Source: Mesorhizobium sp. M2D.F.Ca.ET.226.01.1.1 (GTDB lineage Bacteria; Pseudomonadota; Alphaproteobacteria; Rhizobiales; Rhizobiaceae). Taken from it: DNA of 64,000 bases. The stretch is from assembly GCF_004022705.2 (NCBI RefSeq), contig NZ_RZOY02000001.1:626956-690955 (forward strand), in the 5' to 3' direction. The position numbers were made by a program, and so were the translations under genes. The notes beneath the pieces were generated by a model. It was not told the DNA's origin and ran no database searches. It saw nothing but the letters and a program-made list of their open reading frames with translations. Below are positions 2,015 through 57,482 of this stretch, piece after piece (the first letter of the stretch is position 1; each line of letters starts with the position of its first letter).

Positions 2015-3694
2015 ATGAGCGAAATCGAACGCGAGAGCATGGAATTCGACGTGGTGATCGTCGGCGCGGGTCCCGCCGGCCTTGCCGCCGCGATCCGTCT
2101 GAAGCAGCTCAACCCCGAGCTCTCCGTCGTGGTGCTGGAAAAGGGCGGCGAGGTCGGCGCGCACATCCTGTCCGGCGCCGTCGTCGACCCGATCGGCATC
2201 GATCGTCTCCTGCCCGGCTGGCGCGAGGAGAGCGATCATCCGTTCAAGACGCCGGTGACGGACGATCATTTCCTGGTGCTCGGCCCGGCCGGTTCGTTCC
2301 GCCTGCCGAACTTCCTCATGCCGCCGCTGATGAACAATCACGGCAATTACATCGTCTCGCTCGGCAATGTCTGCCGCTGGCTGGCGACCAAGGCCGAGGC
2401 GCTGGGGGTCGAGATCTATCCGGGTTTCGCCGCGGTAAGCCTGGTCTACAACGACGCCGGCGCCGTCACCGGGGTCATCACCGGCGACATGGGCGTCGAG
2501 AAGGACGGCACGCATGGCCCGGCCTACGCGCCCGGCATGGCGCTGATGGGCAAATATGTGCTGATCGGCGAGGGCGCGCGCGGCTCCCTGGCCAAGCAGC
2601 TGATCGCCAAGTACCAGCTTGCCGACGGCCGCGAGCCGGGCAAGTTCGGCATCGGCCTCAAGGAACTGTGGCAGGTCAAGCCCGAGAACCATAAGCCGGG
2701 CCTCGTCCAGCATTCCTTCGGCTGGCCGCTCGACATGAAGACCGGCGGCGGCTCGTTCCTCTACCATCTCGAGGACAATCAGGTGGCGGTCGGCTTCGTC
2801 GTCCACCTGAACTACAAGAATCCCTGGCTGTCGCCCTTCGAGGAATTCCAGCGGTTCAAGACGCATCCGGCAATCAAAGGCACCTTCGAGGGCGCCAAGC
2901 GCATCGGCTACGGCGCGCGCGCCATCACCGAGGGCGGCTGGCAGTCGGTGCCGAAGCTGTCTTTCCCGGGCGGCGTGTTGATGGGCTGCGCGGCCGGCTT
3001 CGTCAACGTGCCGCGCATCAAGGGCTCGCACAATGCGGTGCTGTCGGGAATGCTGGCGGCGGAAAAAGTCGCGGACGCCATCGCGGCGGGTCGGGCCAAT
3101 GATGAGCTCGCTTCCTATGAGCAAGCCTGGCGCGGCAGCGATATCGGCAAGGACCTGAAGAAGGTGCGCAACGTCAAGCCGCTGTGGTCGCGCTTCGGCA
3201 CCATAGCCGGGGTCGCCATCGGCGGTCTCGACATGTGGCTGAACACGCTGTTCGTCTTCTCGCCCTTCGGCACGCTGAAGCACGGCAAGGCGGATTACGC
3301 CACGCTCGAGCCCGCGTCCAAGCATCAGAAGATCGCCTATCCGAAGCCGGATGGCGTCCTGACCTTCGACCGGCTCTCCTCGGTGTTCCTCTCGAACACC
3401 AACCATGAGGAAAACGAACCGACCCACCTGATCGTCGGCGATCTGGCGTTGCAGCAGCGCTCCGAGCACGACGTCTTCGCCGGTCCCTCGACCCGCTATT
3501 GCCCGGCCGGCGTTTATGAATGGGTGGACAAGGACGGCAACGCCGCCGCCGATCCGGCGGCCAAGGATGTGCGCTTCGTCATCAACGCGCAGAATTGCGT
3601 CCACTGCAAGACCTGCGACATCAAGGATCCGAACCAGAACATCAACTGGGTGCCGCCACAAGGCGGCGAAGGCCCGGTCTATCAAGGCATGTGA
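2015..3694 (+). CDS. Electron transfer flavoprotein-ubiquinone oxidoreductase (ETF-QO)
   Basis: This 559-aa enzyme passes electrons from reduced electron-transfer flavoprotein to ubiquinone at the inner membrane, linking acyl-CoA dehydrogenases such as isovaleryl-CoA dehydrogenase (also in this window) to respiration. The FAD Rossmann motif VVIVGAGPAGLAAA is at ~13-26. The C-terminus carries the 4Fe-4S ferredoxin-type ligands in RYCPAGVY and NCVHCKTCDIKDP, followed by the conserved NWVPPQGGEGPVYQGM end. The start at 2015 is chosen because gaggggccg precedes it; an upstream in-frame start at 1961 would add non-conserved residues. A diverged copy of the last ~12 codons lies 79 bp downstream. 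Confidence 0.95.
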   Translation: MSEIERESMEFDVVIVGAGPAGLAAAIRLKQLNPELSVVVLEKGGEVGAHILSGAVVDPIGIDRLLPGWREESDHPFKTPVTDDHFLVLGPAGSFRLPNFLMPPLMNNHGNYIVSLGNVCRWLATKAEALGVEIYPGFAAVSLVYNDAGAVTGVITGDMGVEKDGTHGPAYAPGMALMGKYVLIGEGARGSLAKQLIAKYQLADGREPGKFGIGLKELWQVKPENHKPGLVQHSFGWPLDMKTGGGSFLYHLEDNQVAVGFVVHLNYKNPWLSPFEEFQRFKTHPAIKGTFEGAKRIGYGARAITEGGWQSVPKLSFPGGVLMGCAAGFVNVPRIKGSHNAVLSGMLAAEKVADAIAAGRANDELASYEQAWRGSDIGKDLKKVRNVKPLWSRFGTIAGVAIGGLDMWLNTLFVFSPFGTLKHGKADYATLEPASKHQKIAYPKPDGVLTFDRLSSVFLSNTNHEENEPTHLIVGDLALQQRSEHDVFAGPSTRYCPAGVYEWVDKDGNAAADPAAKDVRFVINAQNCVHCKTCDIKDPNQNINWVPPQGGEGPVYQGM

Positions 3695-5661: not shown

Positions 5662-7161
5662 TTACTGGAACGCCGTCTCGGAAAAACTTCTGAGCTTGCG
5701 CGAATGCAGCCGCTCCATTGGCATTTCGGCAAGCTTCTCCATCGCCCTGATGCCGATGGTGAGATGCTGCGCCACCTGCCGTTTGTAGAACTCGGTCGCC
5801 ATGCCGGGTAGCTTCAATTCGCCATGCAACGGCTTGTCGGAGACGCACAGCAGCGTTCCGTAAGGCACGCGGAAGCGGAAGCCGTTGGCGGCGATAGTGG
5901 CCGATTCCATGTCGAGCGCGATGGCGCGCGACTGCGACAGGCGCTGCACCGGTCCGCGCTGGTCGCGCAGTTCCCAGTTGCGGTTGTCGATCGTGGCGAC
6001 GGTGCCGGTGCGCATGATGCGCTTCAGATCGTAGCCGGAGAGGCCGGTGATTTCGGCGACCGCTTCCTGCAGCGCCACCTGGATTTCGGCCAGCGGCGGG
6101 ATCGGCACCCAGACCGGCAGGTCGTCGTCCAGCACATGGTCCTCGCGCACATAGGCATGTGCCAGCACATAGTCGCCCAGCGCCTGCGTGTTGCGCAGGC
6201 CGGCGCAATGGCCGAGCATCACCCAGGCGTGCGGCCGAAGCACCGCGATATGGTCGGTGATGGTCTTGGCGTTGGACGGGCCGACGCCGATATTGACCAT
6301 GGTGATGCCGCCATGGCCGGGCTTCTTCAAATGATAGGCCGGCATCTGCGGCAGGCGCTCCGGCGGCGTGCCTTCAGAGGCCGCCGCCCCGTTCCTGGTC
6401 ACGACATTGCCCGGTTCGACGAACTCGACATAGCCGCTGTCGCCATTGGCCATCAGCTCGCGGGCGCGCGCCACGAACTCGTCGATATAGAACTGGTAGT
6501 TGGTGAACAGCACGAAGTTCTGGAAATGATGGGGGCTGGTTGCAGTGTAATGCGTCATGCGGTGCAGCGAATAGTCGATGCGCTGCGCGGTGAACGGGGC
6601 GAGCGGCCGCGGCTCGCCGAACGCCACCTCGAAGGTACCGTTGGCGATCTGGTCGTCGGTGCCGTCGAGATCCGGCACATCGAAAAGGTCGCGGATCGGC
6701 CGCTTGATGCGCTCGGCGGCGGCGCCGTCGACATAAGTGCCTTCCAGGAAGGCGAAATGCAGCGGGATCGGCGTCGTCGATTCCGACACCGTCACCGTCA
6801 CCCCGTGATTGCGCATGATCAGCCGAAGCTGCTCGATGAGATAATTCTCGAAGAGTTGCGGCTGCGTGATGGTGGTGGCGAAATGCCCGGGCGTCGGCAT
6901 ATGGCCATAGGCCTGGCGCGAGTCGACCTGGCTGAATGAGGTCGTGGTGACGCCGATCTGCGGATAGAATGCCCGGTAGCGCTTGCTCTCGTCGCCGCCG
7001 GCGGCAAGGGCCGAGAAGGAGTCGCGCAGGAATTTGGTGTTGCGGTCGTAGAGCGCCTGCAGCGCCGCGACGGCCTTTTTGGCGTCGTGGAACTCCTGCT
7101 TGCCGAAGGGCTCCGGCATGACGACCGATTCGATGGCTTGGGGGTAGATTCGCTTTTCCAT
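5662..7161 (-). CDS. amn: AMP nucleosidase
   Basis: A 499-aa enzyme of AMP nucleosidase length (EC 3.2.2.4). It hydrolyses AMP to adenine and ribose 5-phosphate and so tunes the adenylate pool. The N-terminal AMP-nucleosidase domain (ESVVMPEPFGKQEFHDAKKA onward) is followed by the C-terminal nucleoside-phosphorylase-like domain with INIGVGPSNAKTITDHIAVLRP-type segments, GHCAGLRNTQALGDYVLAHAY and the purine-binding ALDMESATIAANGFRFRVPYGTLLCVSDKP region. It appears monocistronic. Confidence 0.93.
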   Translation of the reverse strand: MEKRIYPQAIESVVMPEPFGKQEFHDAKKAVAALQALYDRNTKFLRDSFSALAAGGDESKRYRAFYPQIGVTTTSFSQVDSRQAYGHMPTPGHFATTITQPQLFENYLIEQLRLIMRNHGVTVTVSESTTPIPLHFAFLEGTYVDGAAAERIKRPIRDLFDVPDLDGTDDQIANGTFEVAFGEPRPLAPFTAQRIDYSLHRMTHYTATSPHHFQNFVLFTNYQFYIDEFVARARELMANGDSGYVEFVEPGNVVTRNGAAASEGTPPERLPQMPAYHLKKPGHGGITMVNIGVGPSNAKTITDHIAVLRPHAWVMLGHCAGLRNTQALGDYVLAHAYVREDHVLDDDLPVWVPIPPLAEIQVALQEAVAEITGLSGYDLKRIMRTGTVATIDNRNWELRDQRGPVQRLSQSRAIALDMESATIAANGFRFRVPYGTLLCVSDKPLHGELKLPGMATEFYKRQVAQHLTIGIRAMEKLAEMPMERLHSRKLRSFSETAFQ

Positions 7162-10444: not shown

Positions 10445-10470
10445 GGAAATGGCCGGGCTCGTCCCGGCCA
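10445..10470. repeat. attL (left attachment core)
   Basis: The 26-bp core begins ggaaatggccgggctc and ends gtcccggcca; it is identical to 49109-49134. It contains the stem tggccggg/cccggcca. At this end the T-tract that would follow the hairpin is replaced by phage DNA starting agcggacg. Confidence 0.92.
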
Positions 10471-10504: not shown

Positions 10505-10594
10505 GCTTGTTTCTTGCCACAATAGCCGTATTTACGCAGATATCGTTATGATAACGGTTGTGGCAAAGAGCATCCAAAGTGGCAAGAAACAAGC
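10505..10594. promoter_or_regulatory. Inverted repeats flanking the integrase start
   Basis: A perfect 16-bp inverted repeat: gcttgtttcttgccac at 10505-10520 faces its complement at 10579-10594, and the right arm contains the GTG start codon of the integrase. Between the arms lies the palindrome cgttatgataacg (10544-10556). These could be integrase arm sites, an AlpA or repressor operator, or an RNA hairpin that sequesters the start. Confidence 0.6.
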
Positions 10595-11745
10595 TATCCG
10601 AGAGCAAACTTAAAGGCCTCACCGATCCCGGTCTATATGGTGACGGCGACGGCTTGTGGATTCGCGTCCAAAAAGGCGGATCGAAAAATTGGCTATTTAT
10701 ATACCGGCGCGGCGTCAAGCGTGAGGAGCTTGGTCTCGGCGGCTACGGACGTGGTACGGCACCAGTCAGCCTGGCGTTGGCACGGGAGAAGGCGGAAACA
10801 ATACGGCAGCAACTAGCCCGCGGCGAGGATCCTCGGGCTGCCCGCACTCACAAACCGAAAACCTTCATCCAAGTCGCCAATGCGCTAATCGACGCAAAGC
10901 GTCCTGAATGGACAGGAGGAAAGACCGCTCGTGAGTGGGAGGTGAGCCTCCGAGAGCAGGCCACACATCTCCACAACATGCCGGTTGGCGAAATCGTTTT
11001 GGGCGACGTCAAGGAATGCCTGCTGGCGCTGTGGACGACGCAGCCAGAAACCGCCAGTAGGCTGCGTGCTCGCGTGGAGAGCGTCTTTGACTACGCAAGC
11101 GCCCATGGCTGGCGCACGGCTGGCAATCCGGCGCGTTGGACCGGCCTGCTGGACAAGGTGCTTCCACGGCCTGCCGCATCCGGAAAGCATCACGCGGCCC
11201 TGCCCTACAAACAAATTCCGGCGCTGATGAAGGCGCTGCGCGAGGCCAACACTGCCGCCGCTCGCGTTGTAGAACTTATCGCACTAACCGCTGTCCGCGC
11301 GGGCGAGGCTCGCGGTGCGGTTTGGGACGAGTTCGACCTTGCCGAACGAACATGGACGATTCCGAAGGCTCGCATGAAGGCAAAGCGCGATCATGTTATC
11401 CCGCTGAGCGAGCGCGCCATGACGATTCTGCAGACACAGAAGCAAGTTGCCACGAATCAATTCGTGTTCGCGAGCCGCAAGGCCGAGACCCATATTTCCG
11501 AAATGATCGTCGTCAAGGCAATGCGCGAGGCATCGCCAGGCAAAGCGGCCACCTTACATGGGCTGCGAAGCTCGTTTCGCGATTGGTGCGGTGACTGTAC
11601 TGACCATCCGCGCGAGGTCGCCGAGGCGGCCCTGGCGCACGTCATCAAGGACAAGACCGAGGCCGCCTACCGCCGCGGGACGGCGCTGGATAAACGGCGC
11701 GAGATGATGACGGACTGGGCAGAGTACTGCGCAAAAGCGCAATAG
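10579..11745 (+). CDS. P4-type tyrosine integrase (DUF4102 N-terminal domain)
   Basis: A 388-aa site-specific recombinase. The N-terminal domain starts ARNKLSESKLKGL with the YGDGDGLWIRV and FIYRR segments typical of P4-family integrases. The catalytic region has ALTAVRAGEARG (first Arg), LHGLRSSFRDW (H-x-x-R) and an AYRRGT tyrosine. The GTG at 10579 is preferred as start; a TTG at 10558 is also in frame. It sits 108 bp inside attL and points inward. It is the likely enzyme for the 26-bp att site, though a second integrase lies at the other end. Confidence 0.88.
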   Translation: MARNKLSESKLKGLTDPGLYGDGDGLWIRVQKGGSKNWLFIYRRGVKREELGLGGYGRGTAPVSLALAREKAETIRQQLARGEDPRAARTHKPKTFIQVANALIDAKRPEWTGGKTAREWEVSLREQATHLHNMPVGEIVLGDVKECLLALWTTQPETASRLRARVESVFDYASAHGWRTAGNPARWTGLLDKVLPRPAASGKHHAALPYKQIPALMKALREANTAAARVVELIALTAVRAGEARGAVWDEFDLAERTWTIPKARMKAKRDHVIPLSERAMTILQTQKQVATNQFVFASRKAETHISEMIVVKAMREASPGKAATLHGLRSSFRDWCGDCTDHPREVAEAALAHVIKDKTEAAYRRGTALDKRREMMTDWAEYCAKAQ

Positions 11746-14960: not shown

Positions 14961-15101
14961 GCAAAAGTAAGTGCAAAAGTAGCGCAAAAGTGGCGCAAAA
15001 GTAAAATCCGCAAAACAGTGCAAAAGTGCAAAAGTGCCTATAGGACTTTTGCACACTTTTGCAGCGCCAAAGTGAACCACTTCGAGCTTTTGCACTTTTG
15101 C
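14961..15101. repeat. Iteron-like array, candidate replication origin
   Basis: Six exact copies of gcaaaagt (14961, 14973, 14984, 14995, 15020, 15028) are followed by three exact copies of its complement acttttgc (15045, 15055, 15094), with degenerate copies at 15010, 15066 and 15086. Spacing is mostly 8-12 bp, near one helical turn. The centre is a perfect 10-bp inverted repeat, gtgcaaaagt (15026) facing acttttgcac (15045). There is no gene within it. Confidence 0.8.
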
Positions 15102-15261
15102 AAGTAATTTAGCGAATTCTCATACAACCTGCTAAGCGATCGGGGCCGCCACCGGCCATCGCGTATTTCTTTTTCGCGGTTCCCTTACCGACATCGCCTA
15201 GGTCCTTTTTTATGTAGTGGGACCAATGCAATGCCAATCGTACATTTTCGGGGACACAGAA

Positions 15262-15534
15262 ATGCAGACCAAACGGTGCGCAAGAACAGAAAGCCAAAGC
15301 CAGGTCCAGACATGGAGCCACTCGCAACTGCGGGTGACGAAAAACCAGGCCGACTTTCTCCGGCGAGGCTTTTCGCAACACTGGTCGGCCGCCCTGACTG
15401 ATCGCACTCGGCGCAGCCTCGAACAACGCAAAATGTTGTCGTGGCAACCAATCGGTGACGGCACTTTCAAATTGGCGGCCAACCTCAAAGGCAAAGCAGC
15501 ACTCGATCATTTTTACGGCAGGAGCAGACATTGA
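15262..15534 (+). CDS. Small phage protein, winged-helix-like
   Basis: A 90-aa protein. The order LRVTKNQADFLRRGF, then RRSLEQRKMLSWQPIGDGTFKLA and GKAAL, follows the pattern of short phage winged-helix proteins (helix, recognition helix, wing, helix). The ATG at 15262 follows cgggga. Its stop overlaps the TTG start of the next gene (attga), so the two are translationally coupled. It lies immediately right of the iteron array, so a role there is possible but unproven. Confidence 0.55.
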   Translation: MQTKRCARTESQSQVQTWSHSQLRVTKNQADFLRRGFSQHWSAALTDRTRRSLEQRKMLSWQPIGDGTFKLAANLKGKAALDHFYGRSRH

Positions 15535-16535
15535 AAAAAGGATCTTTGGCCGATCAGCTTTCAGCGCTGCTGGCTTATCGCAACCGTACCGACATCGATG
15601 CACCAGTTGAGACTGCCCGCACCAACTGGACGATCGTTCCCGCCAACGACAACGCCAATCCAGAGGAAATCGCAAACACGCACGTGGAGAGGCGATTGGC
15701 GATCAGACCAACGATCTCAAAGATTTTGCGCGAGTCCGCGGAAGTCGACTGTCGTCCAGTTCCAGTCGCTGACGTGAGCAAGGCCAAGGGAAAGCATGAG
15801 TGCGAGCTATACCCGTGTGGCCGCGATGTGGAGTACGGTTTCGCTACAGACGATAACGGAAAGCGGCATCGGGTCGTGGTCCGCATCGGAAGGCTGCGCT
15901 TCAGCGACGGTACGCAAACCGAGAAAGGTTTTGCAAAAGGGCTGGACGGCAAGTTGGTCATCAAAGATTTAGAAATGCCCGTTGGCGCCATGCTGCGCAC
16001 GGAGGAACAGCAAGAGCGCATGCTCGGCGGTAATGGCGTCAGCAACGCCTACATTGAGCAGAGCAATCTGTATTTCGCCCAAATGCTCGGCGCAATCGAA
16101 CCACGGTACGTCAAGGGAACCGGGCGCCGCTACGGGCGCTCGTATTCGGCCGCGGAAGCCCGCACAATGCTTGCGGAGGCCTACGCTAACACGCCAGTGC
16201 TGCCGCCTGTGAAGCGCTATCGGAAGGGCTTGCCATGCGGCAGCCAGCGAGTAGCCGAAAGCTTCCTTGGCATGCAGAAGGGCAAGCAAGGCGAAAGCGG
16301 GTCGGTGGCCTGGCAGGACGTATCTGCGCATATCGCAAACCGAGAGGTCTGGGAGGCGACAATAGCCATGCTTTCTGACGCGGATACCAAGGTGTTGGAT
16401 GGGGCGCTTACAGCCAGGAGTCTGGCCGATCTTGGCGATGGCGGTCATAGGCGCACGCGTGAAAGGCAAGGGCGCCGTAAGCTGCAGGCGGCGAATGATA
16501 ATTTGGTTGCCGCACTTAAAAAATCCGCTGCCTAG
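15531..16535 (+). CDS. Phage early protein of unknown function
   Basis: A 334-aa protein starting at TTG 15531, overlapping the previous stop by four bases. It is basic and rich in polar residues. A central part (KGKHECELYPCGRDVEYGFATDD) has two cysteines, and a later segment (MPVGAMLRTEEQQERMLGG) is helical. The C-terminal tail is Arg/Lys-rich (RRTRERQGRRKLQAANDN). No family is recognised. It stands where phages often encode replication accessory or regulatory proteins. Confidence 0.65.
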   Translation: MKKGSLADQLSALLAYRNRTDIDAPVETARTNWTIVPANDNANPEEIANTHVERRLAIRPTISKILRESAEVDCRPVPVADVSKAKGKHECELYPCGRDVEYGFATDDNGKRHRVVVRIGRLRFSDGTQTEKGFAKGLDGKLVIKDLEMPVGAMLRTEEQQERMLGGNGVSNAYIEQSNLYFAQMLGAIEPRYVKGTGRRYGRSYSAAEARTMLAEAYANTPVLPPVKRYRKGLPCGSQRVAESFLGMQKGKQGESGSVAWQDVSAHIANREVWEATIAMLSDADTKVLDGALTARSLADLGDGGHRRTRERQGRRKLQAANDNLVAALKKSAA

Positions 16536-16971
16536 TGCCGCTTTTTCCGATCCTGTGGTGTGGACAAGTGAAGGGATGTTTTTGACATCCCCACACCTTC
16601 CGCATGCAACATAGCATCGGGCGCTTGGTCATGCGGCAGTTCGGTGCCGCCTCTGAACCGGGCGTAACTATTGCAGCACCACGCTGGCGTAATAGCTCTG
16701 TGGATAGCCAAAGGCCCACCGTATGGGAGCCGGCTGCAACGACTACGGCACGGGCGATGGGCCAATGGTAAGTTACCCATGCGTGTCGTCCCATCGCCAC
16801 TCCGCGCGTCCTCCTCCCGCAGCGTTGTGGCGTTTCTGCCTCGCTCCTGTTGCTGGTCGCCTAGCGTCTGGCCGTGGTTGAGCGAGGCACCAATTCAGTT
16901 TCTGCGGTCGTATCGACGCACCGCCGAATAGAATCAACCAAGCGTCGATTATTCCTTGGAGTTAGAACCCA
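16536..16971. other. Non-coding region with nested hairpins
   Basis: 436 bp with no supported gene. It contains a 7-bp hairpin gggatgt/acatccc at 16573-16591. It also has a larger structure at 16753-16798: outer arms ggcgatggg and cccatcgcc enclose an inner stem around atggtaa/ttacccat. The structure could be a phage regulatory RNA or a DNA site. Short frames crossing the region lack ribosome binding sites. Confidence 0.45.
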
Positions 16972-17121
16972 ATGAGCGAAACGAAGAAGTATGTCGAAGG
17001 CATGATTGCAAAGGCTGGCAAGTCGGAGAAGTCGGAGGATGCGATGCGCTTCTCCCAAGCCGCCTGTAATGCTGCTAATGCCATGGCGACGCTTGATCAC
17101 ATACCGCGCAAAAGCGCCTAA
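16972..17121 (+). CDS. 49-aa phage protein
   Basis: A short frame starting ATGAGCGAAACG with ttggag upstream. The product begins MSETKKYVEGMIAKAGKSEK and is predicted helical and lysine-rich, with alanine-rich FSQAACNAANAMATL in the second half. Function unknown. Confidence 0.55.
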   Translation: MSETKKYVEGMIAKAGKSEKSEDAMRFSQAACNAANAMATLDHIPRKSA

Positions 17122-17224
17122 AAGCGCAATCTAATACCCGTGGGCGACGCCCCGATAGGTTGGCACCGGACCAGCGCGTTGCGCGAAGCGTGGTGCAAGT
17201 TTTATTGGAGCGCATATTTTGATT

Positions 17225-17794
17225 ATGAAGACCTGCAAGGCTTGCTTGGAGGAAAAGCCGTTGGAGCTTTTCTGCAAAGATAGCAAGACAAAATCAGGAT
17301 ACGGTTCTCGCTGCCAATCGTGCGAGAATGAACGCAAAGCGAGATATAGACGCGAAAATCCAGATAAGTTTCTTGGCGCCGTTTACGCGTGGAGGATGAA
17401 TAATAAGGATATGCATCTTCAGCAAATGAAGAGGGCAAATCAAAAGAGGACAAGCACCGCAAAGGGACGTCTTGAGCACAACATAAGGCGGGCTGTTAAC
17501 GGTACAATATCAAGGGATATGAAAGGCGGGAAAAGGGTTTTTGACCTGCTTGATTACACCATTGATGAACTTAAAGACCATCTGGAAGCAAAGTTTGCGG
17601 ATGGAATGAATTGGAATAACTATGGCGAGTGGCATGTGGATCATAAGATTCCGCTAGCCGCTTTTGACTATGAAACGCCAAATGACGTCGACTTTAAGCG
17701 CGCATGGTCTCTATCAAATCTTCAGCCGCTGTGGGCGATAGATAATATAAAGAAGGGCGCCATGATAAGCGCCCATTTTGCCGCTGTAGCGTAA
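17225..17794 (+). CDS. HNH homing-type endonuclease with N-terminal zinc finger
   Basis: A 189-aa protein. The N-terminus has two CxxC pairs (CKACLEEKPLELFCKD and CQSCENERKA) forming a treble-clef-like zinc finger. The C-terminus has the HNH core EWHVDHKIPLAAFDY, then SLSNLQPLWAIDNIKKG. Free-standing phage enzymes of this type act as homing endonucleases. Codon use is AT-richer than in neighbours, a sign of separate origin. The last five codons and the stop (17780-17794) lie inside the 5' acceptor and D-arm of the tRNA gene. The ATG at 17225 is preferred over the TTG at 17219. Confidence 0.85.
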   Translation: MKTCKACLEEKPLELFCKDSKTKSGYGSRCQSCENERKARYRRENPDKFLGAVYAWRMNNKDMHLQQMKRANQKRTSTAKGRLEHNIRRAVNGTISRDMKGGKRVFDLLDYTIDELKDHLEAKFADGMNWNNYGEWHVDHKIPLAAFDYETPNDVDFKRAWSLSNLQPLWAIDNIKKGAMISAHFAAVA

Positions 17795-17854
17795 CGGTAA
17801 CGCGGACGCGTTGTAAGCGACCAGATATGGGTTCAAATCCTGTCGGCGGCTCCA
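17780..17854 (+). tRNA. Phage tRNA-Thr (anticodon UGU)
   Basis: 75 nt with a 7-bp acceptor stem (gccgctg facing cggcggc, one G-U), a 4-bp D stem (gcgt/acgc), an anticodon loop GTTGTAA with anticodon TGT, a T loop TTCAAAT and an encoded CCA end. The anticodon stem has one A-A mismatch. Its 5' 15 nt also encode the end of the HNH gene. It reads ACA codons. Confidence 0.88.
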
Positions 17855-17877
17855 GCTTGACTAAAGAGGAGAATACA

Positions 17878-18132
17878 ATGGCCGACATGGTCGCAAAAGT
17901 TCGCATCACCAATATCACCGGTTGCCCAACCGCCGGCCCTGCAACGCAGGAATCGCTGACGTTCCACTTCCCATCCAAGGACGGCGCTTACCCGGACGAC
18001 GGCAGCGACGAGGATCAACAGTTCGCGCGGTTTAGTCCAATGGGCGCGCTGTCACTGACGATCGCCAATCCCGCTCTTCTCGGCAAGTTCAAGGTTGGCG
18101 ACACGTTCTACCTCGACTTCACCAAGATCTAA
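17878..18132 (+). CDS. Small phage protein of unknown function
   Basis: An 84-aa protein with aagaggag before its ATG. It starts MADMVAKVRITNITGCPTAG, and the later part SPMGALSLTIANPALLGKF + KVGDTFYLDFTKI looks like an all-beta fold with a repeated strand. Similar small proteins occur in siphoviruses near HNH and terminase genes, with no known function. Confidence 0.65.
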   Translation: MADMVAKVRITNITGCPTAGPATQESLTFHFPSKDGAYPDDGSDEDQQFARFSPMGALSLTIANPALLGKFKVGDTFYLDFTKI

Positions 18133-18155
18133 GCCGTCACATTAGGAGGATACAC

Positions 18156-18374
18156 ATGAACGCATCTAGCCCTTGGTTTAATGCTACGCCCATCCCCGAG
18201 ACCGATGACGCATTCGAGGTTGGCGATATCGTCAACCTTATCGTTGGTGGCCCAGACATGGTTGTTACCGGTGTCTGCGATGAGTGCGGCGACATAACGG
18301 TGCACTGGATCAAGATCGACGGCGACGTGATGAGCGACGTGTTTCCAGAGGAAGCGCTAGCCTATGCTGCCTGA
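18156..18374 (+). CDS. DUF2158-like small protein
   Basis: A 72-aa protein with aggagg before the ATG. FEVGDIVNLIVGGPDMVVTG, then VHWIKIDGDV and the closing F-E-E-A-L region, match the YodC/DUF2158 pattern (G-D-V..L..GGP.M.V.G.....W......F....L). DUF2158 proteins are small SH3-like folds found in phages and bacteria; their function is not established. Confidence 0.65.
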   Translation: MNASSPWFNATPIPETDDAFEVGDIVNLIVGGPDMVVTGVCDECGDITVHWIKIDGDVMSDVFPEEALAYAA

Positions 18375-18489
18375 TCGGATCGGGAGGCTCCTCGACAAGG
18401 TTCGGCAGTGGTTTGATGACTGGGTGATGCGTGCGTGGGTTTGGTATCACCTCAATGCCTACGACGCACGACGCATTGCGGCGCGATAG
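18364..18489 (+). CDS. 41-aa phage protein
   Basis: A short frame overlapping the previous gene by 11 bases and the next HNH gene by 35. The product starts MLPDRIGRLLDKVRQWFDDW and ends YDARRIAAR, an amphipathic helical peptide rich in Trp and Arg. The overlaps are typical of phage gene packing. No function known. Confidence 0.4.
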   Translation: MLPDRIGRLLDKVRQWFDDWVMRAWVWYHLNAYDARRIAAR

Positions 18490-18787
18490 CCGATCGGCTG
18501 AGGCCACCGAATACAGGAAGCTTTATTCAACGGCCAGATGGAAACGCCTTCGTGAGGTCAAGCTCGCACAGCAGCCGCTGTGCGAGTGGTGCCTAGAGCA
18601 GGAGATAGTTGAGCCGGCGACCGAGGTGCACCACGCAGACGGCGGTCACAAAGGCGACGTCGTTAAGTTCTTTGCCGGTCCATTCGTTTCAACCTGCAAG
18701 CCGTGCCATTCGAGCCGCGGGCAGATGGAGGACCACGGCAAGACCGTGGTCACCTACGGCGTCGATGGCTATCCCATTGAGCGATGA
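18455..18787 (+). CDS. HNH endonuclease adjacent to terminase
   Basis: A 110-aa protein with YRKLYSTARWKRLREVKLAQ, CEWCLEQ, VHHADGG and CKPCHSSRGQ. These are the two zinc CxxC pairs and the HH-N nuclease core. In HK97-like phages a short HNH protein next to TerS and TerL assists DNA cleavage during packaging, and this gene occupies exactly that place. The ATG at 18455 is preferred over a GTG at 18431. Confidence 0.82.
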   Translation: MPTTHDALRRDSRSAEATEYRKLYSTARWKRLREVKLAQQPLCEWCLEQEIVEPATEVHHADGGHKGDVVKFFAGPFVSTCKPCHSSRGQMEDHGKTVVTYGVDGYPIER

Positions 18788-18795
18788 TGTACAAA

Positions 18796-18845
18796 ACATC
18801 AATATTGATGTGCTAGACATCAATCATGATGCATCAGACATCACT
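18796..18845. promoter_or_regulatory. Operator-like repeat array upstream of the late operon
   Basis: A perfect 16-bp palindrome, acatcaatattgatgt (18796-18811), is followed by acatcaat at 18817 and acatcact at 18838. The three acatca starts are exactly 21 bp apart, two helical turns. It lies in the 154-bp gap between HNH and TerS. This suggests a cooperative binding site controlling packaging and structural genes. Confidence 0.55.
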
Positions 18846-18941
18846 GGCAGGGGGTATGCGCGCCTTTGGGGCGATTCTGCCGCCTACCGGCGTGCCCCGC
18901 TAGCGTTAGTGCTAATACAGGTTTTTCCATAGGGTAGTGGC

Positions 18942-19406
18942 ATGGCGAAGCGCAAAGCGCGAATTGATAGCGCGGCTGAGGCTGTGCGCGTTATGGGCAA
19001 GGCTGCTTCGAAGGTAAAGCCGCCTGCAAACGTTCCGCTAGACGCGGAAGACATGCCATTTTTCTACAACGTGATCGCCGAGTACGCAAGGTCGGAGTGG
19101 TCGGCGCACCAGCTTGAAATTGCAGCGATGCTGGCCAGGACAATGGCCGACCTGACGCGCGAACAAAAGCTCCTGCGCGACGAAGGTGGCGTGGCGCACT
19201 CCGAGAAGGGCACGCCGGTAGCCAACCCGCGCAAGTCGATCGTACAAATGCACGCGAGCTCGATCCTGTCGTTCCGTAGATCGCTGTCGCTTCACGCGCG
19301 CGCGCAAGCGGGCGAGGCTAGAGACGTCGCCAAGCGGCGCGCAGCCACGAAGGAAATCGAGGGCAACAACCCTCTAGAGGACGATCTTCTGGCGCGGCCA
19401 GAATAG
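18942..19406 (+). CDS. Terminase small subunit
   Basis: A 154-aa protein directly before TerL. It has an N-terminal basic segment, FFYNVIAEYARSEWSAHQLEIAAMLARTMADL helices, and the EGGVAHSEKGTPVANPRKSI segment seen in P27-like and related TerS proteins, followed by LSLHARAQAGEARD. TerS recognises the pac or cos site and regulates TerL ATPase activity. The assignment rests on these segments and gene order. Confidence 0.8.
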   Translation: MAKRKARIDSAAEAVRVMGKAASKVKPPANVPLDAEDMPFFYNVIAEYARSEWSAHQLEIAAMLARTMADLTREQKLLRDEGGVAHSEKGTPVANPRKSIVQMHASSILSFRRSLSLHARAQAGEARDVAKRRAATKEIEGNNPLEDDLLARPE

Positions 19407-19418
19407 CATCGAAAGCGC

Positions 19419-21014
19419 ATGGCCAAGAATCCAAAGAAGGGCAAAGCGCTAACGCGCGGCGAGCGGGTTATTGCCTTCATTCAGCGATTCTGCCTCGTGC
19501 CAGAGGGAACGCTACTCGGCAAGCCGGTCAACCTGCTTCCGTTCCAGCGCAAGTTCATTCTGGACGTCTACGACAATCCGCACGGCACGTCTCGCGCCTA
19601 CCTGTCAATCGCCAGAAAGAACGGCAAAACTGGCTTGATTGCCTGCCTTCTCCTGGCACATATCGTGGGGCCTGAGGCTTACCAGAACGGTCGCATTGTT
19701 TCCGGCGCACGGTCGCGCAAACAGGCGGCTGAAGTTTTCAACTACGCTGCAAAAATGATCATAATGTCGCCCGAGCTTTCGAAGCTCGCGCGCATCGTTC
19801 CGTCCAGCAAGATGATTGTAGGACTGGCGCGGAACGTCGAATACCAAGCTAGTTCGGCAGAGGCGAAGAGCGCGCACGGCGGCTCGCCAATCTTGGCAAT
19901 TCTGGACGAAGTTGGTCAGATCAAAGGGCCGACCGACGATTTCGTTGAGGCGATTGAAACGTCGCAGGGTGCCTACGAAGGCCGCGCGATGTTGTTTGCG
20001 ATTTCGACGCAGGCGGCAACGGACAACGACCTTTTCAGCCGATGGATTGACGACGCGGCGACGTCGAAGGATCCGCGAATTGTCTCGCACATCTACACGG
20101 CGCCGGCGGACTGCGAACTTACGGATCGTGAAGCGTGGGCCGCGGCCAATCCCGCGTTGGGCGTGTTCCGCTCAGTCAAGGATGTCGAGGACTTTTCGCT
20201 CCTCGCGTCCCGCATGCCGACGAAGGAAGCTAGCTTTCGTTGGCTATTCCTGAATCAGCGCATTGATGCCTCTGCGCCGTTTGTGACGCCAGCTATTTGG
20301 CGCGCATGCGATTCTCCGGTTGTTGACGACTTCAAAGGCTTGCCGGTGTTTGGCGGGCTGGACTTGTCGGAAGTGTCGGACTTGACGGCGCTGGTGCTGA
20401 TGGCTCCACATGACGGCATTTGGCACGTGAAGCCGACATTTTGGCTGCCGAGCGATAGCCTGCGTGAGCGCGCCAAGGCCGATCGAGTGCCGTACGACGT
20501 TTGGCAGGGCGAGTTTCTCGAGGCGACGCCAGGCCCTACCGTCGACTATGAGTTCGTGGCTGCGCATCTCCGCGACCTGTTCGATGCACTGGACGTCCGC
20601 AAGATTGCCTTCGACCGCTGGAACTGGCGGCACCTAAAGCCTTGGCTCTTGGCTGCTGGCTTTGCGGAAGAGCATCTTGAGGGCGACAACGCGGTTTTTG
20701 AACCGTTCGGCCAGGGCTATGCGTCGATGTCGCCGGCCTTGCGCGATCTTGAGAGCATTTTGCTCAACAGGAAGATGGCACACGGCGGGCATCCGGTTCT
20801 GACAATGTGCATGATGAATGCGACTGTGCGCCCGGATCCTTCCGGCAATAGAAAACTCGACAAACAGAAGTCTCGAGGCCGCATTGACGGCGCTGTGGCG
20901 CTCGCGATGGCGACCGCCATGGCTGGCACGCACGTCGAAGCCGATAGCGGTCCGTCGTTCTGGGAGACTTTGGATCCTAACGTCGACTACGCGGCCGAAC
21001 CGCCACCAATCTAA
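19419..21014 (+). CDS. Terminase large subunit
   Basis: A 531-aa packaging motor and headful/cos nuclease of the Terminase_1/HK97 group. Walker A is SIARKNGKTGL at ~63-72, Walker B is LAILDEVGQ at ~157-165, and coupling residues follow (ISTQA). The RNase H-like nuclease shows GGLDLSEVSDLTALVL and the terminal GRIDGAVALAMA. It follows TerS by 12 bp. Confidence 0.93.
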   Translation: MAKNPKKGKALTRGERVIAFIQRFCLVPEGTLLGKPVNLLPFQRKFILDVYDNPHGTSRAYLSIARKNGKTGLIACLLLAHIVGPEAYQNGRIVSGARSRKQAAEVFNYAAKMIIMSPELSKLARIVPSSKMIVGLARNVEYQASSAEAKSAHGGSPILAILDEVGQIKGPTDDFVEAIETSQGAYEGRAMLFAISTQAATDNDLFSRWIDDAATSKDPRIVSHIYTAPADCELTDREAWAAANPALGVFRSVKDVEDFSLLASRMPTKEASFRWLFLNQRIDASAPFVTPAIWRACDSPVVDDFKGLPVFGGLDLSEVSDLTALVLMAPHDGIWHVKPTFWLPSDSLRERAKADRVPYDVWQGEFLEATPGPTVDYEFVAAHLRDLFDALDVRKIAFDRWNWRHLKPWLLAAGFAEEHLEGDNAVFEPFGQGYASMSPALRDLESILLNRKMAHGGHPVLTMCMMNATVRPDPSGNRKLDKQKSRGRIDGAVALAMATAMAGTHVEADSGPSFWETLDPNVDYAAEPPPI

Positions 21015-21055
21015 GCCGATACCGCGGCGATTTTCTTAGAAGCGAGAATTGCCGC

Positions 21056-22294
21056 ATGGGCATTTGGGCTAGGCTTTTCGGTCGAGAGGCCAAGAAGGTG
21101 TCATATTCTGAGGAATTTGATACCTGGTTTGCGAGCAGAGTTTCCAAAGCCGGCACTACGGTAAATTGGGACACTGCTTTAGACGTTACGACCGTGCTTG
21201 CGTGCGTCCGTGCGGTATCTGACGGTATCGCGCAGGTGCCGTTGCACGTTATGCGCCAGACAAATGACGGCAACGGTAGCGTTGCAGCGCCTGATCATCC
21301 GCTTTACCAGGTACTTTTCCGTAAGCCGAACGACTGGCAGACAAGTTTTGGCATGCGTGAGACGATGATTTTTCATCTCATGCTGACCGGCAATGCTTTT
21401 TTCTTCAAGATCCTAGTCCGCGGCAAGGTAAAAGGGCTTATCCCCCTTGAGCCGGGAAACGTCTCGATCGTCAGAAATGGCGATTACTCGCTGACTTACA
21501 CGATTACGGGCGCGAACGGTCAGACAATGACCGTTCCGCAACAGCTTGTGTGGCATGTTCGCGGCCCGTCGTGGAATACGTGGCTCGGAATGGATGCCAC
21601 AAAGCGTGCCCGTGAGGCGATTGGCCTTGCGATGGCGACCGAGAGCACGCAGGGCGAACTTCACGCCAACGGCATGCAAATGTCGGGAGTTCTCTCCAGC
21701 GATCAGAAGATTGATCCAGAGAAATACAAGCAGCTTCAGGCGTGGATTGCCGCACAAGTAGGCGGAGCCAACAAGCACAAGCCGCTCGTCATCGATTCCG
21801 GCCTTGAGTGGTCGCCGCGGTCAATGACCGGCGTCGATGCGCAGCATCTTGAGACGCGAAAGTTCCAAATCGAAGAGATTTGCCGCGCGTTCAAGGTGTT
21901 TCCGCAGATGGTCGGATACTCTGACAAAACGGCGACGTTCGCGAGCGCCGAAGCGTTCTTCGATGCGCACATAAAGCATACGCTTTTGCCGTGGTGCGAG
22001 AGAATTGAGGCGTCCATCGACTGCGATTTGCTCGGCGACGACACCCAGGAAGGCTACTGCGCCAAATTCGACCTGTGGGCGCTCGAGCGCGGAGCAACAA
22101 AGGACCGCTCTGAGTACTTCACTAAGGCCCTTGGTGCTGGCGGAACGCCAGCATGGATGACGCAAGACGAAGTGCGCGCCAAGGAGGGATTAAACCCCAA
22201 GGGCGGTGATGCGGCAAACCTGCCGAAGCCAACCAATGTGGCGCCCGTAGGTGGCGACAATGGCGGGAAGCCGACGAAGGACAACAATCAATGA
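21056..22294 (+). CDS. HK97-family portal protein
   Basis: A 412-aa protein with the portal hallmarks VLACVRAVSDGIAQVPLHV, PLYQVLFRKPNDWQTSFGMRE, GNAFFFKILVRGKVKGLIPL and KFQIEEICRAFKVFPQMVG. It forms the dodecameric DNA-entry ring at one capsid vertex. It overlaps the protease start by four bases, so the two are translationally coupled. The C-terminal tail is glycine- and lysine-rich. Confidence 0.93.
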   Translation: MGIWARLFGREAKKVSYSEEFDTWFASRVSKAGTTVNWDTALDVTTVLACVRAVSDGIAQVPLHVMRQTNDGNGSVAAPDHPLYQVLFRKPNDWQTSFGMRETMIFHLMLTGNAFFFKILVRGKVKGLIPLEPGNVSIVRNGDYSLTYTITGANGQTMTVPQQLVWHVRGPSWNTWLGMDATKRAREAIGLAMATESTQGELHANGMQMSGVLSSDQKIDPEKYKQLQAWIAAQVGGANKHKPLVIDSGLEWSPRSMTGVDAQHLETRKFQIEEICRAFKVFPQMVGYSDKTATFASAEAFFDAHIKHTLLPWCERIEASIDCDLLGDDTQEGYCAKFDLWALERGATKDRSEYFTKALGAGGTPAWMTQDEVRAKEGLNPKGGDAANLPKPTNVAPVGGDNGGKPTKDNNQ

Positions 22295-46377: not shown

Positions 46378-47499
46378 TCAGGTTCTCGGGAGTAGATCCG
46401 TTCGCCTGCCGGTACCCTCAGCGAGCCTGCCAGCCCATCCCAGCGGGTTTTCCCACCACGGCAGCGCTCTGATAGCCGAGGGCACCGGCAACGTATTGAT
46501 GGCCGCAATAAGCGGCGCTTGCGGCACGTTGGTGTAGTGGCGGCTCATGCTGTCCGCAGCGTGCCCAAGGATCTGGTCCTTGATATACGGGTGCACCCCA
46601 TTGACCACGAGCTGGGTCGAAACAGAATAGCGCCCTGTGTACGGGCTGATGTCGTTGATGCCGGTCCGCCGGCGCGCGCCTTGGATTGCAGACTTCAAGC
46701 CGCCGCCACCGTCTGTCACCTCGCCGTATGGCTTGCCTCGGGGCGTGCGGAAGATGCGCCTGTCGATCGACAGGTTTTTGCGCTTAAGCAGCGACTCGAA
46801 CATTGGCACCAAGACATCGTGCATCGGCACACCGCGCGGTTCGCCAGTCTTACTGGTGCGAATGACCAACCAACGGCCAGGCCCGTCGACATCATCGGCG
46901 GCGAGCGCAAATGCCTCGATAGGTCGCAGGCCGGTATAGAACAGCGTCAGCATGAGCATTGCTGGCGCAGGGCTCATAGACGCCAGGAAGGTCGTTGCGC
47001 GGTCATAGGCCACTGGCTTGTTACCGCTGCGCTTGGATGCCCAGCGAGGAACATTCGTTCCTTTAGGATTTCGCGGACGAATCCACTGCTGCGCACTGGC
47101 CCACCGCAGCTTGCAGGCATGGTTCCACACAGCGATAAACGGCGTGTAAACTTGTCGGTTTCGAGTTTGTGGCAGGGCCTTCGGCAGCAATTCCTTGGCC
47201 AGGCTGTCTAGCTGAGGCTGATCTATCTCGCGAAGTTCAGTTGAACCGAATCGATGTCTCAACGGGCCTAAAAAGCGATCAGACCCACGCCAGTCGAGGT
47301 AAGCGTCCGCTGCTTCCCCAAAGGTGACAACGGCGGCGTGGCCGGAGATGCTTTCCTCTATCAGGCGACTTTTGACCGCCTTGATGATTCTCTGCGCACT
47401 AGCCTTGTCCGCAACCTTGGTGGACTCGTAAACGTGAATACCGCGCACCGTTCCTCGGATGTACCAAATCTTGCCGCGGCGAAAAAGTTTCAGGGCCAC
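46378..47499 (-). CDS. Second tyrosine integrase
   Basis: A 373-aa recombinase unlike the P4-type one at the left end. The N-terminal arm-binding part starts LKLFRRGKIWYIRGTVRGIH. The catalytic residues are in LTLFYTGLRPIEAFALA (Arg), ISPYTGRYSVSTQLVV in the place of the H-x-x-R box, then ILGHAADSMSRHYTNV (His and Tyr). The motif that usually reads H-x-L-R-H is here Y-T-G-R-Y, so one catalytic His is replaced. The GTG at 47499 is preferred because ggagg lies six bases before it. Confidence 0.85.
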   Translation of the reverse strand: MALKLFRRGKIWYIRGTVRGIHVYESTKVADKASAQRIIKAVKSRLIEESISGHAAVVTFGEAADAYLDWRGSDRFLGPLRHRFGSTELREIDQPQLDSLAKELLPKALPQTRNRQVYTPFIAVWNHACKLRWASAQQWIRPRNPKGTNVPRWASKRSGNKPVAYDRATTFLASMSPAPAMLMLTLFYTGLRPIEAFALAADDVDGPGRWLVIRTSKTGEPRGVPMHDVLVPMFESLLKRKNLSIDRRIFRTPRGKPYGEVTDGGGGLKSAIQGARRRTGINDISPYTGRYSVSTQLVVNGVHPYIKDQILGHAADSMSRHYTNVPQAPLIAAINTLPVPSAIRALPWWENPLGWAGRLAEGTGRRTDLLPRT

Positions 47500-47568
47500 G
47501 ATGCAGGCCTCCATCGTTCTTCGCGAGTATGGATTCCACAAGTGGGCCTGTCAAGCAACCCTTTGAGA

Positions 47569-49108: not shown

Positions 49109-49134
49109 GGAAATGGCCGGGCTCGTCCCGGCCA
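49109..49134. repeat. attR (right attachment core)
   Basis: Identical to attL over 26 bp. On this side the hairpin keeps its T-rich tail (attttcg). That shows the host site was a terminator between livJ and mccA. Confidence 0.92.
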
Positions 49135-49222: not shown

Positions 49223-51187
49223 TCAGCCCTGGCCATCTTCCGCGAACCGTACCAGCACCGTGCCGTCGCTGACTTGCGCGCCTTCGGCCGCGATCTCGGC
49301 GATCACGCTGTCATGCGGCGCGGCGATCACGTGCTCCATCTTCATCGCCTCGAGGATCAGGAGCGGCTGACCCTTGATCACGGCATCGCCCGCCGCTGCC
49401 CGCACCAGCTTGACCAGTCCCGGCATCGGCGCGCGCAGGCTGCCCGAGGCGGGTCCCGCCTCGTCGGCCTTGGCCAGCGGATCCGGAACCGTGAACGTAT
49501 AGCTGACCGCACCCTCGAAGACCGTGACGTGGCCGGGCCAGCGGGCCGTGTGTGGCATGGTCCTCAGATCATGCGTGTTCACCGCATCATGCGGCGCCTC
49601 CAGCACCACCTGGAAGCGGCCGTCCGGCCGTGCGGAAACCCTGGCCAGGATGTTCTCCTCGCCATGGCGCAGGCGAATGCGGCGCGCGAGCGGGTGGAAA
49701 TGCGCATAGCCTGAAAGCGTGGACCACGGATCGGCGGCCGCACCCGGCGCGCCGGCGTCGGTCGCGGCAAGTGCCGCCGCGGCGATCGTCTCGTCGCTCG
49801 GCGCGGGAATGGCGGTGAGCGCTCCCTGATGCCGGCCGATCAGCCCGGTATCGACATCGCCCGCCGCGAAATCGGCGTCAGCGGCGAGCGCCGCCAGGAA
49901 GGCGGTGTTGACGGTCGAGCCGGCCACTTCCGTCAGCGCCAGCGTCTCGCGCAGCGCGCCGAGCGCCGTGGCCCGGTCCTTGGCGTGCACCACCAGTTTG
50001 GCGATCATCGGATCGTAGAAGGGCGAGATCGCGTCGCCGGCGCGCACGCCGGTCTCGATGCGCATCGCAGCGCTTTGCGGCGCCGCGTCGGGGAATTTAA
50101 GATGATGCAGCGTACCGGTCGCCGGCAGGAACCCTTTCGCGGCGTCCTCGGCATAGAGGCGCGCCTCGAAGGCGTGGCCCGACAGAGCGATTTCAGCCTG
50201 CGGCTTCGGCAGTTTCTCGCCGGAAGCGACGCGAAGCTGCCATTCGACGAGGTCGACGCCAGTGACCATCTCGGTGACGGGATGCTCGACCTGCAGCCGC
50301 GTGTTCATCTCCATGAACCAGAAGCGGTCGGCCTTGAGTCCCTGCGAGGCATCGACGATGAACTCGATGGTGCCGGCGCCCGAATAGTTGATCGCCTTGG
50401 CGGCCTTCACCGCGGCTTCCGCCATCGCCTTGCGCAGCGCGGGCGTCATGCCGGGAGCAGGGGCCTCCTCGATCACCTTCTGGTGGCGGCGCTGCGCCGA
50501 GCAGTCGCGTTCGAAAAGATGCACCGCATCGCCGAAATTGTCGCCGAACACCTGCACTTCGATGTGGCGCGGCTTGTCGACATATTTTTCGACCAGCACG
50601 CGATCGTCTCCGAACGCGGCTTTCGCTTCGCGCCGCGCGCCTGACAGCGCTTCCGAGAAATCGTCGGGATGGTCGACGCGCCGCATGCCCTTGCCGCCGC
50701 CGCCGGCGCGCGCCTTGATCAGCACCGGATAGCCGATCTCGCGCGCCTTGGAAGCGAGCAGCACGATCTCCTGCGCCTCGCCGTGATAGCCGGGCACCAC
50801 CGGCACGCCAGCCGTTTCCATCAGCCGTTTGGCGGCGTCCTTCAGTCCCATGGCGCGGATCGAGCCGGCGGATGGGCCGATGAAGACCAGCCCTGCCGCC
50901 GTCACCTGGTCGACGAAGTCGGGGTTTTCCGACAGGAAGCCATAGCCGGGATGGATGGCTTCGGCGCCGGTGGCGAGCGCTGCCGCGACGATCCTTTCGC
51001 CGCGCAGATAGCTTTCGCCGACAGGCGAGGCGCCGATATGCACCGCCTCGTCCGCCATTTCGACATGCAGGGCGCGGGCATCCGCATCCGAATAGACGGC
51101 CACGGTGCGCACGCCGAGCTTGCGGGCGGTGCGGATGACGCGGCAGGCGATCTCGCCGCGATTGGCGATCAGGATCTTGCCGAACAT
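49223..51187 (-). CDS. mccA: 3-methylcrotonyl-CoA carboxylase biotin-carrying subunit
   Basis: A 654-aa protein with three parts. It starts with biotin carboxylase (FGKILIANRGEIACRVIRTA, Gly-rich ARAGGGGKGM, RDCSAQRRHQKVIEEAPAP, FMEMNTRLQVEHPVTEMVTG). A linker follows, then a biotinyl domain with EAMKMEH, whose Lys616 carries biotin. With MccB it carboxylates 3-methylcrotonyl-CoA in leucine degradation. The neighbours mccB and ivd settle the choice among acyl-CoA carboxylases. It ends 89 bp from attR. Confidence 0.92.
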   Translation of the reverse strand: MFGKILIANRGEIACRVIRTARKLGVRTVAVYSDADARALHVEMADEAVHIGASPVGESYLRGERIVAAALATGAEAIHPGYGFLSENPDFVDQVTAAGLVFIGPSAGSIRAMGLKDAAKRLMETAGVPVVPGYHGEAQEIVLLASKAREIGYPVLIKARAGGGGKGMRRVDHPDDFSEALSGARREAKAAFGDDRVLVEKYVDKPRHIEVQVFGDNFGDAVHLFERDCSAQRRHQKVIEEAPAPGMTPALRKAMAEAAVKAAKAINYSGAGTIEFIVDASQGLKADRFWFMEMNTRLQVEHPVTEMVTGVDLVEWQLRVASGEKLPKPQAEIALSGHAFEARLYAEDAAKGFLPATGTLHHLKFPDAAPQSAAMRIETGVRAGDAISPFYDPMIAKLVVHAKDRATALGALRETLALTEVAGSTVNTAFLAALAADADFAAGDVDTGLIGRHQGALTAIPAPSDETIAAAALAATDAGAPGAAADPWSTLSGYAHFHPLARRIRLRHGEENILARVSARPDGRFQVVLEAPHDAVNTHDLRTMPHTARWPGHVTVFEGAVSYTFTVPDPLAKADEAGPASGSLRAPMPGLVKLVRAAAGDAVIKGQPLLILEAMKMEHVIAAPHDSVIAEIAAEGAQVSDGTVLVRFAEDGQG

Positions 51188-51236
51188 GGAGCCTCCCGGA
51201 TGTGATGCGGGCGGCCCGGACTCGACGTTCGCCCGC

Positions 51237-51611
51237 CTACTTCGAAGCCGCGATCTGGCAGTAGCCGCCCGCTGCCACCTTGTAGTGCGCCTGAGCGGAC
51301 TGGCAGGATTTCATCGCCAGATCCTCGGCCGCCTTTTGCGACGGCGCGTTGTAGTGAGTGCCGCACAGGACGTAGCCGTCCCTGACCCGCACAAACGATG
51401 TCGTCGCGTATGCCGAATGGCCGCTTGCGGCGATATAAGCCTTGTAGGCCTTGGTGCACGGATCCGTGGCTCTGCCGGACAGCGTCGGCGAAAAGCGCTT
51501 GTCGCCCACACTGCCCGACAGCGATCCGGCTGCCTCGGCGGCTGATGCGACAAATATTAGGAACCCTGCAAGTATCGAAACAATCGGCTTCCGGTAATAT
51601 TTCAAGATCAT
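51237..51611 (-). CDS. Secreted protein of unknown function in the leucine operon
   Basis: A 124-aa protein with a signal peptide (ILKYYRKPIVSILAGFLIFV, then ASAAEA). The mature part has DPCTKAYKAYIAASGHSAYA, VLCGTHYNAPSQKAAEDLAM and KSCQSAQAHYKVAAGGYCQI, with four cysteines. The pattern resembles DUF4189-like secreted repeats but is not decisive. It lies between the macro-domain gene and mccA. Confidence 0.6.
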   Translation of the reverse strand: MILKYYRKPIVSILAGFLIFVASAAEAAGSLSGSVGDKRFSPTLSGRATDPCTKAYKAYIAASGHSAYATTSFVRVRDGYVLCGTHYNAPSQKAAEDLAMKSCQSAQAHYKVAAGGYCQIAASK

Positions 51612-51731
51612 TTTCACCCAACCCCATTCGCCCAATGCAAGACGAAGAATAGCGAATATTTTTCGCCAGCGCCAGCGGGCGCCTGGAGATTCGCACTTGC
51701 CTGTACTGGGGAATCGCTTGGTCCATAAAGT

Positions 51732-52262: not shown

Positions 52263-52264
52263 CG

Positions 52265-53872: not shown

Positions 53873-53975
53873 TGACAAACCTCAAATGATATCATATTTT
53901 AGTATCACTTCGGGCTCTCGCCCTAACCCCAGAGGATTTGACCACAAAGGTATTCGACTGGGGAAGGCGAAAGCC

Positions 53976-55755: not shown

Positions 55756-55804
55756 GCCGTTCCTCCCTGCGCACGCCCCGGTCTTCGCGGAGATCATGCC
55801 CGTA

Positions 55805-56452: not shown

Positions 56453-56475
56453 ATTCGCCTCTTGCCATAGTAATA

Positions 56476-56492
56476 AAACGAACGTTCAATTA
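56476..56492. promoter_or_regulatory. Candidate TetR operator
   Basis: Centre gaacgttc is a perfect 8-bp palindrome, within aaacgaacgttcaatta. It lies 24-40 bp before the TetR start, as in autoregulated TetR genes. Confidence 0.5.
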
Positions 56493-57467: not shown

Positions 57468-57482
57468 GCCGCAACCGCCCGA

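Follow-up and report, generated by a model that had tools for sequence, protein, structure and literature searches.

A free-standing HNH endonuclease gene (HNH1) carried by a prophage abuts the 5′ end of a tRNA-Thr gene, and the tRNA sequence supplies its four final codons together with the stop. We hold with moderate confidence that HNH1 came to this spot by insertion as a homing-type element and that its native 3′ end was lost. The sequence evidence consists of the overlap itself, a sibling phage without the HNH gene that has the same leader followed by a tRNA, the low GC content of HNH1, and a match to its protein family that ends at Phe185.

The window, i.e., the whole 64,000-nt stretch analysed here, comes from a genome of 6.87 Mb in 158 contigs and holds a prophage of about 38.7 kb that we assign to the Rhizobium phage 16-3 group. 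Its genes run from an integrase (10558-11745) through a primase, ORF334, the HNH-tRNA site, HNH2, terminase, portal, capsid, tape measure, tail fibre and lysis genes to a second integrase (46378-47541), and the features around the site are collected in Table 1. The two integrases, which lie at opposite ends of the prophage, are both tyrosine-type and both match phrog_1. A 26-bp direct repeat (10445-10470 and 49109-49134) has only these two exact copies in the genome, and the copies, about 38.7 kb apart, are probably the att ends of the prophage. After ORF334, a non-coding stretch (16500-16684) is 60-65% similar in more than 10 sibling loci and is possibly an RNA or regulatory region.

Table 1 Features of the HNH-tRNA site and its surroundings (positions in the window)
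Feature	Position	Strand	Basis or remark
Leader, common to window and L100	17134..17205	+	77.8% over 72 nt
HNH1, endonuclease-VII-like HNH gene, 189 aa	17225..17794	+	Open frame from ATG; phrog_1035; structure model
HNH1 part matched by relatives	17225..17779	+	Ends with codon Phe185 (17777-17779), adjacent to tRNA base 1; GC 45.4%
Hairpin GGGCGC-CATGATAA-GCGCCC then ATTTT, ending at tRNA base 1	17755..17774	+	Predicted fold
Shared stretch	17780..17794	+	HNH1 codons A A V A + stop = tRNA bases 1-15; sequence, ARAGORN, open frame
tRNA-Thr, anticodon UGU, CCA encoded	17780..17854	+	ARAGORN (tgt); Rfam 50.6 bits
orf84, right of tRNA in window and L100	17878..18132	+	74% to L100; phrog_6978
HNH2, conserved terminase-side HNH gene, outside mobile unit	18431..18787	+	phrog_2323
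TerS, terminase small subunit, anchor of sibling comparison	18942..19406	+	phrog_5601

Siblings of the prophage were compared at 95 TerS-anchored loci, 84 of which have at least 1.5 kb of upstream sequence; 71 of those are distinct there. At least one tRNA lies within 3 kb upstream of TerS in 48 of the 71 distinct siblings, so we regard the region as a standing tRNA site of this phage group, and the tRNA genes found at it include 40 tRNA-Met(cat), 13 tRNA-Thr(tgt) and 11 tRNA-Pro(tgg). TerS relatives occur in 15 Rhizobiales genome contigs at 70-88% identity and in viral contigs at 56-92% identity (own phage aside; L102 at 90%). Among the host's relatives, TerS was found in one of 146 genomes and the tRNA region in one of 61, in each case the window's own, while orf84 relatives are present in 6 of 397 genomes of the order, own included; among the five others, only one locus (L235) holds a tRNA-Glu anywhere within it. 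HNH2 was considered as a mobile gene and rejected, being present in 84 of the 95 terminase loci (most remaining loci are incomplete) and matching a terminase-side HNH family.

The HNH1-tRNA-Thr overlap

The preliminary description had an HNH frame ending inside a tRNA-Thr(UGU) with its last five codons and stop; the ending inside the tRNA stands, with 15 nt common to both genes, but the shared codons number four plus the stop. The 3′ end of HNH1 reads CAT TTT / GCC GCT GTA GCG TAA, where the stroke precedes tRNA base 1 and the TAA occupies 17792-17794 in the open reading frame list, and its last 15 nt coincide with the 5′ side of the acceptor stem, bases 8-9, the 5′ half of the D stem and the start of the D loop. 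At the other end, an alternative start (TTG at 17219, giving 191 aa) has a GGAG 7 nt upstream. When 331 distinct tRNA sequences, many of them related, were read from base 1 in all three frames, 299 of the 993 frames met a stop within 15 nt, compared with ~164 after mononucleotide shuffling, and a stop inside the tRNA is therefore to be expected once a frame enters without one of its own. The unusual feature is that HNH1 reaches tRNA base 1. A general tie of the HNH1 family to tRNAs was likewise rejected, since 79 of 80 viral loci with HNH1 relatives have no tRNA within 1 kb in the available flank (some flanks are incomplete and some loci are near-duplicates), and the sole tRNA-adjacent locus is the same phage as the window.

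All profile matches of HNH1 are to endonuclease VII/HNH families, with no GIY-YIG family among them, and the phrog_1035 match covers residues 1-182 (E 7.2e-24). The HNH motif columns are invariant, and the nuclease domain is intact and lies outside any intron or intein; Rfam gave the tRNA as its only match in 15000-22000, with no intron family, and a group I intron or intein around HNH1 was rejected on that basis. Pfam returned nothing for HNH1 up to E 0.1, the best match in a PDB sequence-profile search was a repeat protein with no single stretch passing alone, and Foldseek against the PDB gave nothing at E 0.001, its best match standing at 0.31 and those to I-HmuI and an HNH nickase only at E about 2-3. 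There is thus no convincing PDB counterpart for HNH1 among solved homing enzymes in either search, which, together with the general absence of tRNAs beside HNH1 relatives, counts against insertion as a homing-type element. The AlphaFold model is a confident HNH-type fold (mean pLDDT 94.5). The tRNA-encoded AAVA only extends its last helix, with confidence dropping there to a block mean of 71, and these residues may be tolerated by the protein.

The tRNA-Thr exceeds the cut-off of the Rfam model RF00005 (29 bits) but has the lowest score of the 48 tRNA matches in its genome. Read by eye, it is paired in the acceptor and D stems, with two G-U pairs in the T stem and one A-A mismatch in the anticodon stem. 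A tRNA-Thr(UGU) of the host's own was found among the 30 of 48 genomic tRNA loci examined. We call the tRNA-Thr weak because of this score, the mismatch and the host's own copy, and such a weak gene would leave room for poor processing or no use. Codon need was dropped as a reason for its presence, the difference being too weak: ten phage genes use ACA for 13.7% of their 306 Thr codons, vs 8.8% of 297 in a set of 20 long frames picked mechanically from the neighbourhood of host tRNAs. No sigma-70-type promoter was found in 16500-19000 (0 vs 1.3 in shuffles). The negative promoter scan and the weakness of the tRNA would fit a reading in which the HNH1 frame is an untranslated relic or the tRNA-Thr a dead copy, and the overlap without consequence at the RNA level. 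We consider this unlikely, given that the frame is open over its full length and keeps all 19 invariant columns of a 49-sequence alignment, that the tRNA lies far above the Rfam cut-off, and that most distinct siblings keep at least one tRNA at the site.

Sibling loci and the origin of the junction

The preliminary description had called for a comparison of phages with and without the HNH gene. In the contig of the closest sibling (L100), the leader runs directly into a tRNA-Met, followed by orf84, with no HNH gene between, while the order in the window is leader, HNH1, tRNA-Thr, orf84. The leader and orf84 thus correspond, but the tRNA is of another species, and the leader core occurs in only two IMG/VR contigs, those of the window's phage and L100. 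Insertion of HNH1 between leader and tRNA is the simplest reading of this comparison, against which it must be set that it depends on a single HNH-less contig with tRNA-Met instead of tRNA-Thr. Since the tRNA species differs, HNH1 and tRNA-Thr may also have arrived or been swapped in jointly. In its full form, this alternative has the two genes imported from another phage as a pre-formed cassette that took the place of an L100-like tRNA, which would make the overlap older than the phage, and it agrees with the variation in tRNA species among siblings. Base composition argues against it, as the tRNA-Thr is phage-like in GC (58.7%, with 57.5% in the left/leader region, 57.0% in the orf84-TerS stretch and 58.3% in the TerL-capsid stretch) while HNH1 (45.4%) is not. 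Furthermore, no other copy of the HNH1/tRNA-Thr junction was found in our pattern scans or in genomes of the host's relatives, and we judge a cassette to be quite improbable.

The end of the protein is consistent with insertion followed by loss of the native 3′ end. From 823 protein matches to HNH1, we compared the tails of the best 120, own included, all of which have an NLQPLW-type motif. An F[QNH]P tail is present in 80 of these 120, and in all 80 its F lies at offset 20 after the N of the NLQPLW motif. In the window the tail reads AMISAHF, with the F at the same offset, and the next base is base 1 of the tRNA. Because the family match stops at Phe185, the last codon before the tRNA, HNH1 has likely lost its native 3′ end, with the tRNA supplying a substitute end and stop. 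Counting against tail loss, 40 of the best 120 (the window's protein among them) have no F[QNH]P and 20 of the 120 end before the F position. Homologues ending well before the site, which the preliminary description had named as contrary evidence, are the minority here, as 95 of the other 119 extend past it. A frame change without any tail loss, extending HNH1 into the tRNA past stops that are now out of frame in the hairpin loop, would suit the TGATAA in that loop and the 20 early-ending proteins, but it leaves the F at its conserved offset unexplained and is very unlikely.

Other homing-type genes were sought at the sibling loci with seven representative nucleases as queries. Such a gene lies upstream of TerS in 8 of the 71 distinct siblings, own phage included, and between TerS and TerL in 10 of the 71. 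The tRNA site is thus a gathering place for homing-type genes too, in keeping with an insertion of HNH1 there. Those upstream of TerS are a GIY-YIG-like/NUMOD3 gene just after a tRNA-Thr (L085), HNH_5-type genes (L089, L092, L119, L150, L165) and another HNH gene (L129), with HNH1 itself found there only in the window's phage. In L085, a second tRNA-like Rfam match (6336-6398, 43.2 bits), with no ARAGORN call, lies left of the tRNA-Thr. A possible overlap of the reverse type occurs in L088, L090, L101 and L126, where the open HNH2 frame extends back into a tRNA-Met and has an ATG, as a candidate start, inside the tRNA.

Junctions of the same kind were searched for with four pattern scans combining an HNH motif and a tRNA T-arm at set distances, which cover certain codons, T-arm forms and spacings only. 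Among the 48 distinct loci retrieved, two are real HNH-tRNA junctions by translation and ARAGORN: the window's phage and an unrelated phage contig (L216). In the latter, a 247-aa HNH gene of the same type ends AAT AGA TTT TGA, and the GA of its stop forms bases 1-2 of a tRNA-Glu(ctc), an overlap of 2 nt in a stretch with 11 tRNA genes. Another open frame of this tRNA-rich stretch (2845-3540) has its beginning within a tRNA-Glu(ttc). Where an HNH gene lies between TerS and TerL, its stop falls inside the predicted TerL frame in L087 (9306-9357, and the same in L118) and in L128 (1304-1355), and the canonical in-frame TerL starts found upstream fall within the HNH gene. The nucleases of L087 and L128 look alike and may represent one event. 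A third candidate, L109, was dropped, as TerL could begin there at an ATG that closely follows the HNH stop; this, together with the L097- and L135-type loci, where the HNH stops short of TerL with no overlap, weighs against our preferred reading. As the TerL cases show a stop inside the next frame, overrun of the following gene also happens where that gene is no tRNA, and no function particular to tRNAs is needed to explain it. With the tRNA-Glu junction and two distinct siblings whose HNH gene ends inside the TerL frame, the HNH1-tRNA overlap is likely a by-product of insertion at the edge of a conserved gene.

A possible shared transcript

The conflict at the RNA level that had been claimed from the letters of the window would follow from the layout and from what is known of tRNA maturation, since a cut before 17780 would leave codon 185 on one fragment and the four remaining codons with the stop on the other. 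RNase P maturation of a shared transcript is thus predicted to leave the HNH1 message non-stop. We envisage that HNH1 inserted at the leader/tRNA junction, and that selection would have kept the tRNA intact and left the nuclease end free to change. If one transcript serves both genes, each copy matured by RNase P would yield a tRNA and a non-stop HNH1 message, and the nuclease would be made from uncut transcripts only. By analogy with SegB, HNH1 would then cut the same site in phages without the gene, and repair would carry HNH1 and the adjoining tRNA over together. Of the two roles that had been suggested for the overlap, limitation of HNH1 expression by tRNA maturation is a sound prediction with a published bacterial parallel in selB-tRNASec. 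A tie of HNH1 to tRNA spread is plausible by analogy with SegB, though just one further contig has the leader and HNH1 relatives do not as a rule adjoin tRNAs. We consider it unlikely that the tRNA acts as both cargo and throttle, with the RNase P cut stripping the stop and sending the ribosome to rescue, the nuclease made only while maturation lags, and nuclease and tRNA travelling as a unit.

The hairpin just upstream of the tRNA may be a weak terminator, or a leader hairpin only. A terminator scan called it on the - strand only and gave 3 terminator-like sites vs 2.6 in shuffles, and the leader folds no better than its shuffles (z 0.34 and 0.19).

Comparison with known systems

The closest functional likeness is to SegB, a homing endonuclease encoded by a free-standing gene in the tRNA region of phage T4, which is reported to be enriched near tRNAs and to amplify a tRNA gene under Septu defence (PMC13096335). 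Its gene sits between tRNA-Arg and tRNA-Ile and its target is the tRNA intergenic region; RNA structure keeps the expression of T4 homing genes low, and RNase E cleaves the transcripts of segB and segG (PMC2988022). HNH1 is likewise a free-standing nuclease gene at phage tRNAs, abutting a tRNA-Thr at a site where the sibling phages carry tRNAs. However, SegB is a GIY-YIG enzyme, which places HNH1 outside its class and limits the likeness to one of working, and homing is only predicted for HNH1. Unlike HNH1, a SegB frame ending inside a tRNA is not reported in the available text of either source.

Such an ending is instead described for selB and tRNASec in Alphaproteobacteria, where the frame enters a same-strand tRNA, some stops lie inside the tRNA, and a non-stop message after processing has been proposed (available text of PMC8124441). 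HNH1 similarly reads 15 nt into a same-strand tRNA. As far as that text goes, the selB-selC pair differs in that protein and tRNA cooperate, the overlap recurs across species and the whole tRNA is often nested, while here a mobile-type gene overlaps by 15 nt in one phage; the HNH1-tRNA overlap is not conserved among relatives, and of the 48 pattern-scan loci only this phage and the unrelated L216 have an HNH-tRNA junction. No description of a homing-type gene ending inside a tRNA was found among the titles and abstract openings listed by the literature searches, and the present case joins homing-type genes lodged at phage tRNAs with protein frames that end inside a tRNA, a pairing we did not find there. 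If the RNA conflict holds, it would offer a small test system for tRNA maturation limiting a mobile nuclease.

By profile, HNH1 belongs with the phrog_1035 endonuclease-VII-like HNH proteins, which include p100 of phage 16-3 and P0003 of Sinorhizobium phage NV1.1.1 (43% identity to P0003). Unlike HNH1, both of those genes lie among protein genes, and the tail of P0003 is PFQPSL. No tRNA was found in 50000-60195 of phage 16-3. tRNA-Met and tRNA-fMet genes in 16-3-like prophages are mentioned in PMC10460002. The MobE-like p108 of 16-3 shares the pre-cos region with HNH1 but is of a different HNH family (phrog_655). Nuclease genes at boundaries of phage exchange are the subject of PMC10448857. 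Like the T4 mob genes and p108, HNH1 is an intergenic HNH gene beside conserved phage genes, and our comparisons suggest a habit in which such genes can end within the first bases of the adjoining conserved gene, be it tRNA or terminase, which, if true, would make clean loss of the HNH gene costly.
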